From Niveispirillum sp. (GTDB taxonomy: Bacteria; Pseudomonadota; Alphaproteobacteria; Azospirillales; Azospirillaceae), in contig NZ_JAGOGJ010000004.1 of NCBI RefSeq assembly GCF_017996735.1, positions 1 through 64,000 of the forward strand: 64,000 nucleotides of DNA, in the 5' to 3' direction. Position numbers and translations under genes: made by a program. The notes below the pieces were generated by a model, which saw nothing but the letters and a program-made list of their open reading frames with translations, did not search any database and was not told where the DNA came from. Below are positions 59,160 to 64,000 of the stretch, in pieces; positions within the stretch are counted from its first letter, which is position 1, and each line of letters starts with the position of its first letter.

Positions 59160-59497
59160 GTGCGGATATTCAGGAGCAAGTCCTTTACCCGCTTTGCCCG
59201 AAAGGCCGGCATTTCTGATGCCGACCTTGGCGGCGGCGTGATCAAGCAGCGTGTTGCCCGTCCGGTTGCTGGAAAATCCGGCGGATTCCGTAACATCATC
59301 TTGTTGAGAGTGGGGAGTCTGGCGTTCTTCGTCCATGGGTTTGCCAAGATTGATCTGGGAATATCCATCGGGATGAAGTGGATATGTTCAAGGTCTTGGC
59401 TCAGCAGATTCTGAGTCTTGACGACGAACGACTGGAGGCTGCGCTGCGGTCCGGAACATTTGTGGAGATTTCACGGGATGCCGAAGCAATATCGTAG
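59160..59497 (+). pseudogene. Degraded RelE/HigB-type toxin gene
   Basis: The frame from a GTG at 59160 gives MRIFRSKSFTRFARKAGISDA, then jumps at once to DLGGGVIKQRVARPVAGKSGG, recognisable as both ends of the RelE-like toxin core. About 15-18 residues normally between them appear missing. After GFAKIDLG the frame goes out; the +1 frame resumes the expected C-terminus (NIHRDEVDMFKVLAQQ ... EISRDAEAIS) and ends at 59497, overlapping the antitoxin by 20 bases. One extra G in the CTGGGA run (about 59357-59361) would restore it. So the gene has an internal deletion and a frameshift, and the mRNA interferase is very probably inactive. Confidence 0.8.
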
Positions 59498-59795
59498 CGA
59501 CGTGATGGCGTCCATTCATGAAACCGCCGAAGGTCTGTACGGCGCTGGCCTGATAGATAAGCAGACCATGCGTCAGTTCGATGACGGATGTCTGACCCCG
59601 GTGACGCCGCTTGCACCCGAAGAGATCAAGGCGTTGCGCGAACGTGAAGGTGCCAGCCAGGCCGTCTTCGCCCGCTATCTGAACGTAACGACCGGCTTGG
59701 TGAGCCAGTGGGAGCGCGGCGAGCGTCATCCGCAGGGCGCATCATTAAAGTTGCTGTCGCTCGTCGCGCGACGGGGTTTGTCGGCGGTCGCCTGA
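59478..59795 (+). CDS. HigA-like antitoxin (XRE family)
   Basis: A 105-residue DNA-binding antitoxin. The N-terminus MPKQYRSDVMASIHETAEGLY and the motif LAPEEIKALREREGASQAVFARYLNVTTGLVSQWERG (read in parts) form the toxin-binding and Cro/CI helix-turn-helix regions of this family; the end LKLLSLVARRGLSAV is typical. The frame is intact although the toxin in front is broken, so it may persist as a stand-alone repressor or protect against a homologous toxin. The ATG overlaps the ancestral toxin 3' end. Confidence 0.88.
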   Translation: MPKQYRSDVMASIHETAEGLYGAGLIDKQTMRQFDDGCLTPVTPLAPEEIKALREREGASQAVFARYLNVTTGLVSQWERGERHPQGASLKLLSLVARRGLSAVA

Positions 59796-59927
59796 ACACG
59801 CCCTACGCCCCGCCCCACCAAACCCTTCATCTGATTTGCGAATACCCAGCCCGCCGTTTCGCTATTGCGAATAACTCGCACCCGTGCTTTCTTGCGAGCC
59901 ATTATCAATCGCGGGTGAAGCGGGGAC

Positions 59928-60545
59928 ATGGCGACGGGGGTGGAGCAGCAGGGGCGGCGGTCCTTCTGGTTGAAGCATCTGCACCAATGGCATTGGGTCA
60001 GTTCGGCCCTGTGCCTGATCGGCATGCTGCTGTTCGCCGTGACCGGCATCACCCTGAACAATGCCCGCCATGTGGAGGCCAAGCCGAAGACCGTGACGGT
60101 GGAGGCTGTCCTGCCCGAGACGCTGCGTCCCGCACTGGAGATCGGTGCGGGACCGGTGCCGGCTGTCATCGTGGATTGGTTCCGGACCGAATTGCGGCTG
60201 GACGTTGCCGCCGGTGTACCCGAATGGTCCGATGACGAGCTTTACATCGCCCTGCCGCGCCCCGGCGGTGACGGTTGGGCGACGATCGCCCGCGCGGATG
60301 GCGCCGTCCTCCATGAGGTGACGGACCGGGGCTGGGTCTCCTACCTCAACGATCTGCACAAGGGACGGGGGACGGGGGCGATCTGGTCCTGGTTCCTGGA
60401 CATCTTCGCCGTAGCCTGCCTGGTCTTCTGCATTACCGGCCTTTTCCTTCTGCACCTGCATGCGGGCAATCGCCCCAGCACCTGGCCGCTGGTCGGGCTG
60501 GGGCTGGTGGCGCCTGTCCTGCTGCTGATCCTTCTTATCCACTGA
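59928..60545 (+). CDS. PepSY-associated transmembrane protein
   Basis: A 205-residue inner-membrane protein with three helices: about 20-45, 155-178 and 185-204. His-rich ends mark the spans (KHLHQWHW before the first, LHKGRG before the second, LHLHAGNR after it), the pattern of PepSY-TM proteins that are thought to bind heme or work in ferric/flavin reduction. The ~110 residues between helix 1 and 2 face the periplasm and resemble a PepSY domain. First gene of a five-gene run with DUF2271, DUF4198, ApbE and a flavodoxin reductase. Confidence 0.85.
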   Translation: MATGVEQQGRRSFWLKHLHQWHWVSSALCLIGMLLFAVTGITLNNARHVEAKPKTVTVEAVLPETLRPALEIGAGPVPAVIVDWFRTELRLDVAAGVPEWSDDELYIALPRPGGDGWATIARADGAVLHEVTDRGWVSYLNDLHKGRGTGAIWSWFLDIFAVACLVFCITGLFLLHLHAGNRPSTWPLVGLGLVAPVLLLILLIH

Positions 60546-60563
60546 TCTTTCAGGATTGAACCC

Positions 60564-61073
60564 ATGCGCACGCTTCTGTCGCTTTCGCTGACCGGTCTGG
60601 CCGTCACCCCTGCGCTTGCCGGGGAACTGGCGGTGACGGTGGAGATCCCCAAGCTGGAGGTGGCGGAATATCACCGCCCCTATGTCGCGGCCTGGATCGA
60701 GACGCCGGACCAGCAGTTCGTCGCCAACCTGACCGTCCGCTATGACGTGAAGATGCGCGACAATGAGGGGACGAAATGGCTGAAGGACATGCGCCAATGG
60801 TGGCGCCGGTCGGGTCGCGACCTGACCATGCCGGTGGATGGCGTGTCGGCACCGACCCTGCCAGTGGGTGAGAACCGGCTGACCTGGGACAGCGCCAAGG
60901 CCCCCCTGAACGGCCTGAAGCCCGGTTCCTACGCCCTGGTGGTGGAGGCCGCGCGCGAGGTGGGCGGGCGTGAACTGATCCGCGTGCCGTTCGACTGGAA
61001 CGGCAAGGACACCAAGACCGAGGCCAAGGGTGAGACCGAGTTGGGCCGTATCGCGGTCGAAGTGAAGGGTTGA
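60564..61073 (+). CDS. DUF2271 periplasmic protein, possible flavinylation target
   Basis: A 169-residue protein with a signal peptide (about 1-19, ending ALA). It has the DUF2271 pattern: AAWIETPDQQFVANLTVRY, then KWLKDMRQWWRRSGRD and the loop DGVSAPT at 92-98. That loop is reminiscent of the ApbE acceptor motif DxxSGA(T/S), but here Ala-Pro replaces Gly-Ala. Gene order next to apbE supports a redox role in the periplasm. The function of the family is not established. Starts 18 bases after the PepSY gene stop. Confidence 0.85.
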   Translation: MRTLLSLSLTGLAVTPALAGELAVTVEIPKLEVAEYHRPYVAAWIETPDQQFVANLTVRYDVKMRDNEGTKWLKDMRQWWRRSGRDLTMPVDGVSAPTLPVGENRLTWDSAKAPLNGLKPGSYALVVEAAREVGGRELIRVPFDWNGKDTKTEAKGETELGRIAVEVKG

Positions 61074-61118
61074 ACGCCCCACCGTCCAATTGACATCAAG
61101 ATCACAGGAGCCTGCCCC

Positions 61119-61934
61119 ATGAAGTCGCTGCTTACTCGCGCCACCCTGGCCCTGACGCTGGCCGTTTCCATCGCCGGTCCGGCGGCGGCCCACCGGCAAT
61201 GGATGCTGCCTTCGGCCACCGTCCTGTCGGGCCAGGACCCGTGGATCACGGTCGATGCCGCCGTGTCCAACGACCTGTTCTATTTCGAACATGTGCCGCT
61301 GCGCCTGGACGGGTTGGCTGTCACCAATCCCGACGGCTCGGTCGGCACGGCCGAGAACCAGGCGACGGGCAAGTATCGCAGCACCTTCGATGTGCATCTG
61401 ACGCAGCCGGGCACCTATAAGGTGGCGCTGGCCAGCGGTGGCGTCATGGCCAGTTGGGAAGAAAACGGGCAGCGCAAGCGCTGGCGCGGCACGGCGGAGA
61501 GCTTCGCCAAGGAAGTGCCGGCCAATGCCGAAAAGCTGCAGGTGACCGAAGGGGCCCGCCGTCTGGAATTCTTCGCCACGGCCGGCAAGCCGACAGACAC
61601 GGTGCTGAAGCCCACGGGCAAGGGCCTGGAACTGTCCCCCGTCACCCATCCGAACGACCTGTTCGCGGGTGAGAAGGCCAGCTTCAAGCTGCTGCTGGAC
61701 GGCAAGCCCGCCGCCAATATCGACGTCACGGTTATTCCCGGCGGCATCCGTTACCGCAACGACCTGGGCGAAATGAAGGTGAAGACCGACAAGGATGGCG
61801 CCTTCACCATCACCTGGCCTAACCCCGGTATGTACTGGCTGACCGCCCAGGCCGAGGACAACAAGACCAGCGTGCCGCAGGCGACCAAGCGGTCCGCCAG
61901 CTATACGGCCACGTTCGAGGTGCTGGCGCAGTAA
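61119..61934 (+). CDS. DUF4198 periplasmic protein
   Basis: A 271-residue protein with a signal peptide (about 1-24) whose cleavage at AAA-HRQW leaves a histidine at the mature N-terminus, a common feature of DUF4198 proteins. The body is a pair of beta-sandwich domains (WMLPSATVLSGQDPWITVDAA at the start; DGAFTITWPNPGMYWL in the second). The exposed N-terminal His suggests metal binding, as in nickel/cobalt or copper handling proteins of similar fold. It lies between the DUF2271 and apbE genes in the same operon. Confidence 0.87.
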   Translation: MKSLLTRATLALTLAVSIAGPAAAHRQWMLPSATVLSGQDPWITVDAAVSNDLFYFEHVPLRLDGLAVTNPDGSVGTAENQATGKYRSTFDVHLTQPGTYKVALASGGVMASWEENGQRKRWRGTAESFAKEVPANAEKLQVTEGARRLEFFATAGKPTDTVLKPTGKGLELSPVTHPNDLFAGEKASFKLLLDGKPAANIDVTVIPGGIRYRNDLGEMKVKTDKDGAFTITWPNPGMYWLTAQAEDNKTSVPQATKRSASYTATFEVLAQ

Positions 61935-62003
61935 GGGCTGTTACCGTTCCGCCCCTCTGCCCCGTGCATGGGCGGGGGGGCGGCAACTGCCGGCGTCACA
62001 TCG

Positions 62004-63032
62004 ATGAAGATCCATCCCAGCATCCCCCTGCGCCTGATCCTGCCGCTGGACGCACCGGCAGCCGCCCTGCCGCCGGCACAAACGCCGGTGGTGCGGTTGT
62101 CGGGCACGACCATGGGCACCTATTGGTCCGTGGCGGCCATCGCCCCGAAGGGGCCGGAGCCGCTGAGCCTGCGTCGGGGGATCGTCGCCATCCTGGACCG
62201 GGTCGTGGCGGTGATGAGCCATTGGGAACCGGCCAGCGACCTTTGCCGCTATAACCGCGCGCCGCAGGGTTGGGTGAGTGTGGACCCGATGCTGTCGGAC
62301 GTTCTGTCGGCCGCACTGACGGTGGCGGCAGACAGTGGCGGGGCCTGTGATCCGGCCATCGGCGGACTGGTCGATGCCTGGGGTTTCGGGCCGCCCGGCC
62401 CCGTCACCGGCCCGCCGGAGGAGGGGTATATCCAAACCCTGCTGTCCGGTCCGCGCTGGACCGACCTGCGGGTACAGCCGGGGCGGATCTGGCAGCCGGG
62501 CGGCCTTCGCCTGGATCTGTCGGCCATCGCCAAGGGTTACGCCGTGGACCTTGTCGCCCGTTTTCTGGACGAACAGGGGGTGATGAGCCATCTGGTCGAT
62601 ATTGGCGGCGAGTTGCGGGGGTGGGGCATCAAGCACGATGCCACGCCCTGGTGGGTCGATCTGGAACAGGCGGCGGGCCGCGACGGCCGACCGGGCGGTC
62701 GCGCCAACCGGATCGCGCTGCATGGTCTGTCGGTGGCGACCAGCGGCGACAGCCGCCGCTTCATGGTGGGACAAGACGGGCGGCGCCTGTCCCATACGCT
62801 GGACCCCAGAACCGGTTGGCCGGTGCCCGATGATCTGGCAGCGGTGACCGTGCTGCATACCGACTGCATGATGGCTGACATGCTGGCCACGGCCCTGACC
62901 GTGATGGGCGCTGATGCCGGTCCCACCTGGGCCGCCGAACGCGGCATCATGGCCCTGTTTGTCCGGCGTCGGGGGAATGGGATCACCGAAACAGTGACGC
63001 CTGCGCTGGCAGCGCTGGTGGAGGATGCGTGA
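62004..63032 (+). CDS. apbE: ApbE-family FAD:protein FMN transferase
   Basis: A 342-residue ApbE. Motifs: LSGTTMGTYWSV near residue 32-43, LDLSAIAKGYAVD, the FAD-site DIGGELRGWG, HTLDPRTGWPV and the metal site TDCMMADMLATAL. ApbE moves FMN from FAD onto a threonine or serine of a partner, normally outside the cytoplasm. Here the N-terminus has only a weak hydrophobic run (IPLRLILPL) and no lipobox, so export is uncertain; an ATG at 61968 does not help. Its stop overlaps the next start by TGATG. Confidence 0.92.
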   Translation: MKIHPSIPLRLILPLDAPAAALPPAQTPVVRLSGTTMGTYWSVAAIAPKGPEPLSLRRGIVAILDRVVAVMSHWEPASDLCRYNRAPQGWVSVDPMLSDVLSAALTVAADSGGACDPAIGGLVDAWGFGPPGPVTGPPEEGYIQTLLSGPRWTDLRVQPGRIWQPGGLRLDLSAIAKGYAVDLVARFLDEQGVMSHLVDIGGELRGWGIKHDATPWWVDLEQAAGRDGRPGGRANRIALHGLSVATSGDSRRFMVGQDGRRLSHTLDPRTGWPVPDDLAAVTVLHTDCMMADMLATALTVMGADAGPTWAAERGIMALFVRRRGNGITETVTPALAALVEDA

Positions 63033-64000
63033 TGGACCCGCTGAGCCAGCGCTATCTCTGGGCCGGGCTGGTAATGGCAATCTATGCCCTGTTCTGCGCG
63101 GTCATTTTCCGCCGGCATGCCCTGCGCAACCGCCCCGTGGGTGTGGGAGAGGGTATCCTGGTCGCCTATGCATCCCAGACCGGATTCGCCGAAAACCTGG
63201 CCCGGCACACGGTCGCTGGCCTGATCGGGGCTGGCCAGTCGGCCTGGGCCGAAGCCATCGACCGCATCGATGCGGCCCGCCTGTCGGGACTGACCCGCGC
63301 CCTGTTCATCGTTTCCACGACGGGGGAGGGTGATGCACCTGACCACGCGGCCGGCTTTGTGCGGCGGGTCATGGGCGCGTCGGCACCGCTGCCGACCCTG
63401 AAATACGGGCTGCTGGCGCTGGGTGACCGTGATTACACGAAATTCTGCGCCTTTGGTCACGCGCTGGACGGCTGGCTGCGCCATCAGGGGGCGGTGCCGC
63501 TGTTCGACATGGTGGAGGTGGATGACGGTGATGCCGGCGCCCTGCGCCATTGGCAGCATCATCTGGGACAGATCGCCGGCCACGTGCATCTGCCCGACTG
63601 GACCGCGCCCGACTATCAGGAATGGCTGCTGACGGACCGCCGTCACCTTAACCCCGGCAGTCCGGGGGCGCCGATCTTCCATCTGCGCCTGACCCCGCCC
63701 CCGGGCGCCAAGGCCGACTGGCAGGCCGGCGACATCGCGGAGGTGGGGCCGTGCAATCCCCCCGACCTGATCGCCGCCGCCCTGGTCGATGCCGGGGGCG
63801 ACCGGGCCGAGACCCGTGACGGCACAACCCGCCCCCTGTCGCACTGGCTGGCCGAAACCATTCTGCCGGCGGGGCGGGAACCCTTGCCGCACCGGGAATA
63901 TTCCATCGCCTCTCTGCCGGCCGACGGCACCCTGGACCTTGTGGTGCGGCGCATGGCGGGACCGGACGGACGCTTGGGGCTGGGGTCGGGCTGGTTGACG
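63032..64000 (+). CDS. Membrane-anchored flavodoxin/ferredoxin reductase-like protein (3' end outside window)
   Basis: The first 323 residues are visible. One N-terminal membrane span (about 8-27, YLWAGLVMAIYALFCAVIF) is followed by a flavodoxin domain with the FMN loops YASQTGFAENLA, STTGEGDAPDHA and LALGDRDYTKFCAFG. The rest resembles the start of a CysJ/cytochrome P450 reductase-type FAD/NADPH module (REYSIASLPADG is the usual R-x-Y-S FAD motif). It should bring NAD(P)H electrons to the membrane for the PepSY/DUF2271 proteins. Coupled to apbE by a one-base overlap; continues beyond the window. Confidence 0.92.
   Translation, partial: MDPLSQRYLWAGLVMAIYALFCAVIFRRHALRNRPVGVGEGILVAYASQTGFAENLARHTVAGLIGAGQSAWAEAIDRIDAARLSGLTRALFIVSTTGEGDAPDHAAGFVRRVMGASAPLPTLKYGLLALGDRDYTKFCAFGHALDGWLRHQGAVPLFDMVEVDDGDAGALRHWQHHLGQIAGHVHLPDWTAPDYQEWLLTDRRHLNPGSPGAPIFHLRLTPPPGAKADWQAGDIAEVGPCNPPDLIAAALVDAGGDRAETRDGTTRPLSHWLAETILPAGREPLPHREYSIASLPADGTLDLVVRRMAGPDGRLGLGSGWLT

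Follow-up and report, generated by a model that had tools for sequence, protein, structure and literature searches.

A compact six-gene operon of a Niveispirillum-like alphaproteobacterium probably encodes an iron-starvation-induced transmembrane electron pathway for ferric reduction

The window, a stretch of 64,000 nucleotides, opens a contig of 126.8 kb from a Niveispirillum-like alphaproteobacterium and ends in a run of five co-directional genes that begins at position 59928 and encodes, in order, an inner-membrane protein of the PepSY_TM type (PepSY), a DUF2271 protein, a DUF4198 protein (copy a), the flavin transferase ApbE and a membrane-anchored diflavin reductase (FdR) (Table 1). The operon is probably a Fur-type, iron-starvation-induced transmembrane electron pathway for assimilatory reduction of ferric iron or ferri-siderophores. 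A first-pass annotation, made from the letters of the window, had described a tightly spaced run of these five families. Indeed, the family of each product was confirmed by Pfam, the stop codon of apbE overlapped the ATG of the reductase gene, and the other intergenic gaps were short, at 18, 45 and about 33-69 bases. The description of a five-gene operon stood for the window and fell short on the contig, where the reductase gene extends to position 64486 and another DUF4198 gene (copy b) comes next as the sixth of the run.

Table 1. Features of the operon and its promoter region. Positions are those of the window unless stated otherwise.
Feature	Position	Strand	Basis and remarks
Fur-like box TGCGAATAACTCGCA	59866-59880	+	exact match to TG[AC]GA-N5-TC[TG]CA
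Second Fur-like box TGCGAGCCATTATCA	59893-59907	+	one mismatch; also kept in close relatives L034, L035 and L036
PepSY_TM_like_2 inner-membrane protein	59928-60545	+	Pfam PF16357 2.6e-75, PF03929 2.2e-10; AlphaFold2 model; conservation
DUF2271 exported putative flavoprotein, motif D92-G-V-S-A-P-T98	60564-61073	+	Pfam PF10029 1.6e-47
DUF4198 copy a, signal peptide and mature His1	61119-61934	+	Pfam PF10670 9.6e-62; conservation; structure-model matches
ApbE flavin transferase	62004-63032	+	Pfam PF02424 6.1e-75; alignment to solved ApbE 5MGY
Membrane-anchored diflavin reductase, flavodoxin and FAD/NAD(P)H domains	63029-64000 in window, end at contig 64486	+	Pfam Flavodoxin_1 2.9e-23 (window part); complete protein Flavodoxin_1 6.3e-23 and NAD_binding_1 8e-8
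DUF4198 copy b, sixth co-directional gene	contig 64547-65353 (L002:7548-8354), beyond window		60 bases after the reductase gene

To compare gene order, one genome per species was scanned with DUF2271, the best 80 loci were retained, and operon genes were called by phmmer in all open frames. The full order PepSY-DUF2271-DUF4198-ApbE-FdR was intact in 58 of 67 loci with full flanks, a rate that applies to close relatives of the window DUF2271 because the loci were picked by their DUF2271 similarity to the window. Fifty-three of these carried the five genes, three added DUF4198 copy b and two had an extra DUF2271-DUF4198 pair in front; five of the 67 lacked the reductase and four lacked ApbE. The loci spanned alpha-, beta- and gammaproteobacteria (Azospirillaceae, Hyphomicrobiales, Burkholderiales, lysobacters and Pseudomonas). 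The gene-neighbourhood search that the first-pass annotation had proposed as a check on DUF2271, DUF4198, ApbE and PepSY returned a conserved association.

The promoter region and the flanking genes linked the operon to iron. A scan with the classical Fur consensus was replaced by a palindrome, TG[AC]GA-N5-TC[TG]CA, that was noticed in a few loci at the outset and afterwards counted in the whole set. The exact palindrome was present 5′ of PepSY in 19 of 79 loci compared to 0.8% of pieces drawn at random from these loci (an enrichment of about 30-fold), and with at most one mismatch in 42 of 79 compared to 2.9%, values that are somewhat flattering because the form of the palindrome was picked after looking. 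With one exact and one mismatched box, the window operon has at its promoter the Fur-like sites predicted for a Fur-regulated operon. A TonB receptor was present in 27 of the 67 long loci and a PiuC/CciO-type dioxygenase relative in 25; on plasmids of Sphingomonas parapaucimobilis (L126) and Methylobacterium currus (L127), a TonB receptor, an Fe2+ dioxygenase, PepSY, DUF2271, DUF4198 and ApbE are encoded in this order as a single run in one direction. CciT and CciO are a Caulobacter pair shown to aid iron uptake under chelation (PMC11870441). The Caulobacter operon CC_3059-3063 was induced under iron limitation and in a fur mutant, and the Fur binding sites in its promoter were validated (PMC3751524); insertions in CCNA_03155-03159 reduced fitness in EDTA (PMC11870441).

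Ferric iron is the most likely acceptor. The same electron path could serve copper or another metal, with DUF4198 binding Ni, Zn or Cu, as has been proposed for the Bordetella PepSY_TM protein CrpH, which supports heme-copper oxidases (PMC13038864); known DUF4198 structures contain Ni, Zn, Cu and Co. The Fur-like boxes, the neighbouring TonB siderophore receptor and PiuC genes, and, for the Caulobacter operon, its control by Fur and its phenotype in EDTA all argue against a dedication to copper or another metal, which is quite unlikely.

The AlphaFold2 model of PepSY (pLDDT 87) contained three long predicted helices (residues 4-44, 150-179 and 183-204). The paired histidines to which the first-pass annotation had drawn attention proved conserved in part: H22 and H144 were invariant, the C-terminal H205 was present in 78 of 80 sequences and H178 in 75 of 80, whereas H17 and H176 showed no conservation in the aligned relatives. 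In the model, H22/H178 and H144/H205 lie at opposite ends of the helices. Under the positive-inside rule, H22 and H178 would face the cytosol and H144 and H205 the periplasm, an arrangement that would create a bis-His heme site on each side, two in total as in FoxB. PepSY is thus modeled with conserved histidine pairs on opposite faces of the membrane, as in a FoxB-like two-heme transmembrane reductase, and may be expected to bind heme at both. Searches of PDB sequences (phmmer and profile) returned no credible relative of PepSY. In a PDB structure search with the PepSY model, the listed matches were weak and limited to the small periplasmic domain, and FoxB (7ABW) was not among them.

At the N-terminus of the reductase, a hydrophobic segment precedes RRHALRNR, from which the catalytic part is presumably cytosolic; CysJ and cytochrome P450 reductase are relatives of the protein. 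On another contig of the same genome (L131:4728-7154; G000:C69, minus strand), an 808-residue fusion joins a PepSY_TM domain (8-376) to flavodoxin (403-527) and NAD-binding (676-782) domains, and its reductase half is 44-56% identical to the operon reductase. The fusion provides comparative evidence that such a reductase feeds a PepSY_TM protein. By inspection, the fusion gene lies beside a tannase/feruloyl-esterase-like gene, and the PepSY_TM part of its product is FoxB-like. The likeness of the operon reductase to CysJ, and the convergent cysNC, cysD, cysH and cysI genes a few kb downstream of the operon, might suggest that it is a CysJ-type subunit of sulfite reductase. This role was judged highly improbable: the cys genes are on the opposite strand and their link to the operon is seen in the nearest relatives only, while the reductase remains part of it across alpha, beta and gamma loci and the host fusion joins such a reductase to PepSY_TM.

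The DUF2271 protein carries a Sec-like signal peptide at its N-terminus, as judged by inspection and by our own hydropathy heuristic, in which ATG, GTG or TTG starts up to 60 residues upstream of the domain were allowed and the mean hydropathy over ten uncharged residues was scored. The PDB sequence search found no credible relative of this protein. For a DUF2271 protein, flavinylation by its ApbE at an [S/T]GA[S/T] motif has been demonstrated (PMC8238504), and an ApbE-like acceptor motif was found in 82 of 82 DUF2271 proteins of the loci. In the motif alignment of 83 sequences, window included, the Asp and the final Thr were invariant (83/83) and the residue ahead of the middle pair was Ser or Thr; the middle pair was GA in 50 of 83 and otherwise AP, GP, SP, SA, QP, AA, TA or TP. 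The window protein reads D-G-V-S-A-P-T, and SAPT is also found in its closest relatives. On a tree built with the motif columns left out, a minimum of seven switches between GA and non-GA pairs was required, and the starred branches forced at least two. The gene apbE adjoined nearly all DUF2271 genes with a non-GA motif. Another product of the operon as the target of ApbE was considered and rejected, as none carries even the relaxed motif.

The simplest reading of the motif is that ApbE would still modify Thr98 despite SAPT. It is conceivable, if rather doubtful, that the SAPT versions of DUF2271 have lost flavinylation and serve as plain binding or docking proteins, with electrons passing straight from the PepSY hemes to the metal. 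In favor of this reading are the SAPT motif itself, the drop to about half the flavinylation after single Gly to Ala and Ala to Val changes in a fumarate reductase (PMC12052999), and reduction by FoxB with no flavoprotein partner described. However, the Thr and Asp were retained in every sequence while the two middle residues drifted, and an apbE with its catalytic residues kept adjoins the DUF2271 gene, both of which favor continued flavinylation of Thr98. If the relaxed acceptor motif is real, motif-based tallies of flavinylated proteins would be too low.

ApbE is usually described as periplasmic, using exported FAD. Alignment of the operon ApbE to 5MGY showed that the catalytic His (in SHTLDP) and Asp (in ADMLATA) are retained in the PF02424 domain. 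With a mean hydropathy of at least 2.0 required, the heuristic detected a signal-like segment in 11 of 70 operon ApbEs compared to 79 of 80 DUF4198 and 47 of 82 DUF2271 proteins from these loci; lowering the cut-off to 1.7 raised the counts to 18 of 70, 80 of 80 and 66 of 82, respectively. Clear ApbE signal peptides occurred in four lysobacter loci, and the Cupriavidus matches were a short, proline-broken VLIPVALSAP just after the start. The RefSeq starts of ApbE in three annotated records (Acidovorax, Sphingomonas and Methylobacterium) were consistent with a missing signal. Most ApbEs of this widespread operon type are thus without a visible export signal, though their sole plausible substrate is exported. 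Many instead have a conserved N-terminal peptide, followed by a proline-rich stretch. The pattern [RQH]-[VLIT]-[LAFVY]-[IVL]-P was found near the N-terminus in 41 of 71 operon ApbEs (shuffled mean 1.2, maximum 5), mostly as RVLVP, RVLIP or RVAIP, a count that describes conservation and is no independent test because the pattern was derived from the same sequences; the window ApbE has a variant, RLILP, outside the counted pattern. A second ApbE of the host (L030; G000:C220) is encoded beside a NosR-like gene and, by inspection, has a twin-arginine-type N-terminus.

Tentatively, and with the odds against it, ApbE of this operon family may work in the cytosol and flavinylate DUF2271 as a precursor, ahead of its export by Sec or in the course of it, such that a precursor with covalent FMN would cross the membrane; the RVLIP-like peptide would then replace the signal peptide, and the target would be relaxed to D-x-x-[S/T]-x-[A/P]-T. 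If flavinylation does precede Sec export, it would alter how and where exported flavoproteins form, and export of FAD would not be needed in such a system. Cytosolic flavinylation followed by Tat export was rejected, the DUF2271 signal peptides being without a twin-arginine pattern. In their survey, Méheust et al. dropped signal-less ApbEs from the extracytosolic set (PMC8238504), and according to a review, a cytosolic ApbE is exceptional, being known for Klebsiella fumarate reductase and some eukaryotes. An incomplete literature search found no paper addressing a signal-less ApbE with an exported substrate.

The first-pass annotation had noted a mature N-terminal His in the DUF4198 protein, and this His1 was invariant in copy a (81/81). 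Its view of both DUF2271 and DUF4198 as lacking a settled function is outdated, since a flavinylated DUF2271 and a nickel-binding DUF4198 have been published and metal-bound DUF4198 structures are available (9GCB with Ni; Zcp 9MHL-9MHN). The Ideonella DUF4198 binds nickel through His1 and His18 (PMC12537917). The model of copy a resembled both this NikK-type IsDUF4198 (9GCB; Z 16.3, 205 residues, 3.9 Å) and Zcp (9MHI-9MHN; Z 19.8, 214 residues, 3.0 Å) in fold along the whole chain, and shares the N-terminal His with 9GCB. At the position of the His18 ligand, however, copy a has Trp in 79 of 81 sequences, its other conserved histidines being His34 and His153; the NikK-type brace of His1 and His18 is thus lacking in copy a, and copy b has both residues. 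The two copies may differ in how they bind metal.

Together, these genes suggest the following path. The membrane-anchored reductase would take hydride from cytosolic NADPH and pass electrons one at a time via FAD, followed by FMN, to the PepSY heme site on the cytosolic side, from which they would reach the second, periplasmic heme site. The periplasmic heme would reduce the FMN that ApbE would attach at Thr98 of exported DUF2271, and this flavin would reduce ferric iron brought by a TonB receptor. DUF4198, binding metal through its N-terminal His, probably holds or passes on the released metal. A path from NAD(P)H through flavins and a membrane heme to a periplasmic flavoprotein and a metal had been put forward in the first-pass annotation; it is supported by synteny, the Fur-like boxes, the TonB and PiuC neighbours, the histidines at heme positions and the natural fusion, and matches a published model (PMC8238504).

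Several observations weigh against this path. The window DUF2271 has SAPT in place of the canonical [S/T]GA[S/T] acceptor motif, and the hydropathy heuristic recognized neither a signal peptide nor a lipobox in the window ApbE. About half of the 79 loci scanned had no detected Fur-like box. The host genome, rated 100% complete, had no match to FeoB (FeoB_C), Nramp, FTR1, ZIP or VIT1, a search that did not extend to SitABC-type or other ABC transporters. Among 11 genomes of the genus, FeoB was present in four and absent in seven, and several of the FeoB-less genomes carry the operon; FeoB was found in four members with an SGPT motif and was absent in five with SAPT, an association confounded by clade.

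Beyond the operon, the contig encodes a protein with a weak likeness to EAL domains and a small protein that looks exported and belongs to no family (L002:8440-10052; contig 65439-67051); in the closest relatives (L035 and L036) the same two types of gene come after the operon, with the convergent cys genes next. In the window, a RelE-type toxin gene (PF06296; 59160-59497) is apparently broken by a frame change near 59370-59384. The HTH antitoxin-like gene beside it (59418-59795) is intact and is found in the same place in L034.

The operon type has already been published, and the copy described here adds a compact six-gene version. In Caulobacter crescentus, CC_3059-3063 (CCNA_03155-03159) has the same five gene types, in the order as reported, and is Fur-repressed and iron-responsive with a fitness defect in EDTA (PMC3751524, PMC11870441). 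The Niveispirillum copy differs in its second DUF4198 and may differ in its SAPT motif, and Caulobacter, the control in the FeoB search, has FeoB while the host does not. Among the 3220 PepSY-like flavinylation clusters of Méheust et al., for which assimilatory iron reduction was proposed, DUF2271 was present in 2833 and DUF4198 in 1500, and iron reduction by VciB was reported (PMC8238504). The Niveispirillum operon shares with these systems the PF16357 protein, DUF2271, ApbE and DUF4198. As in their definition, its PF16357/PF03929 protein lies within five genes of ApbE and DUF2271, and at least one signal peptide among ApbE, FMN-binding, DUF2271 and DUF3570 genes is supplied, by the heuristic, by DUF2271. 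In contrast, their acceptor motif was [S/T]GA[S/T] and their ApbEs were filtered for signal peptides, and the Niveispirillum operon has neither feature. In the PepSY_TM ferri-siderophore reductases FoxB and HiuB, which obtain iron from siderophores, the conserved histidines for two hemes are likewise distributed over both membrane faces. FoxB contains two PepSY domains and no flavoprotein partner of it has been described, whereas the Niveispirillum PepSY has three helices and a single small domain. The fusion protein of the host (L131:4728-7154) belongs to PF03929, like FoxB.

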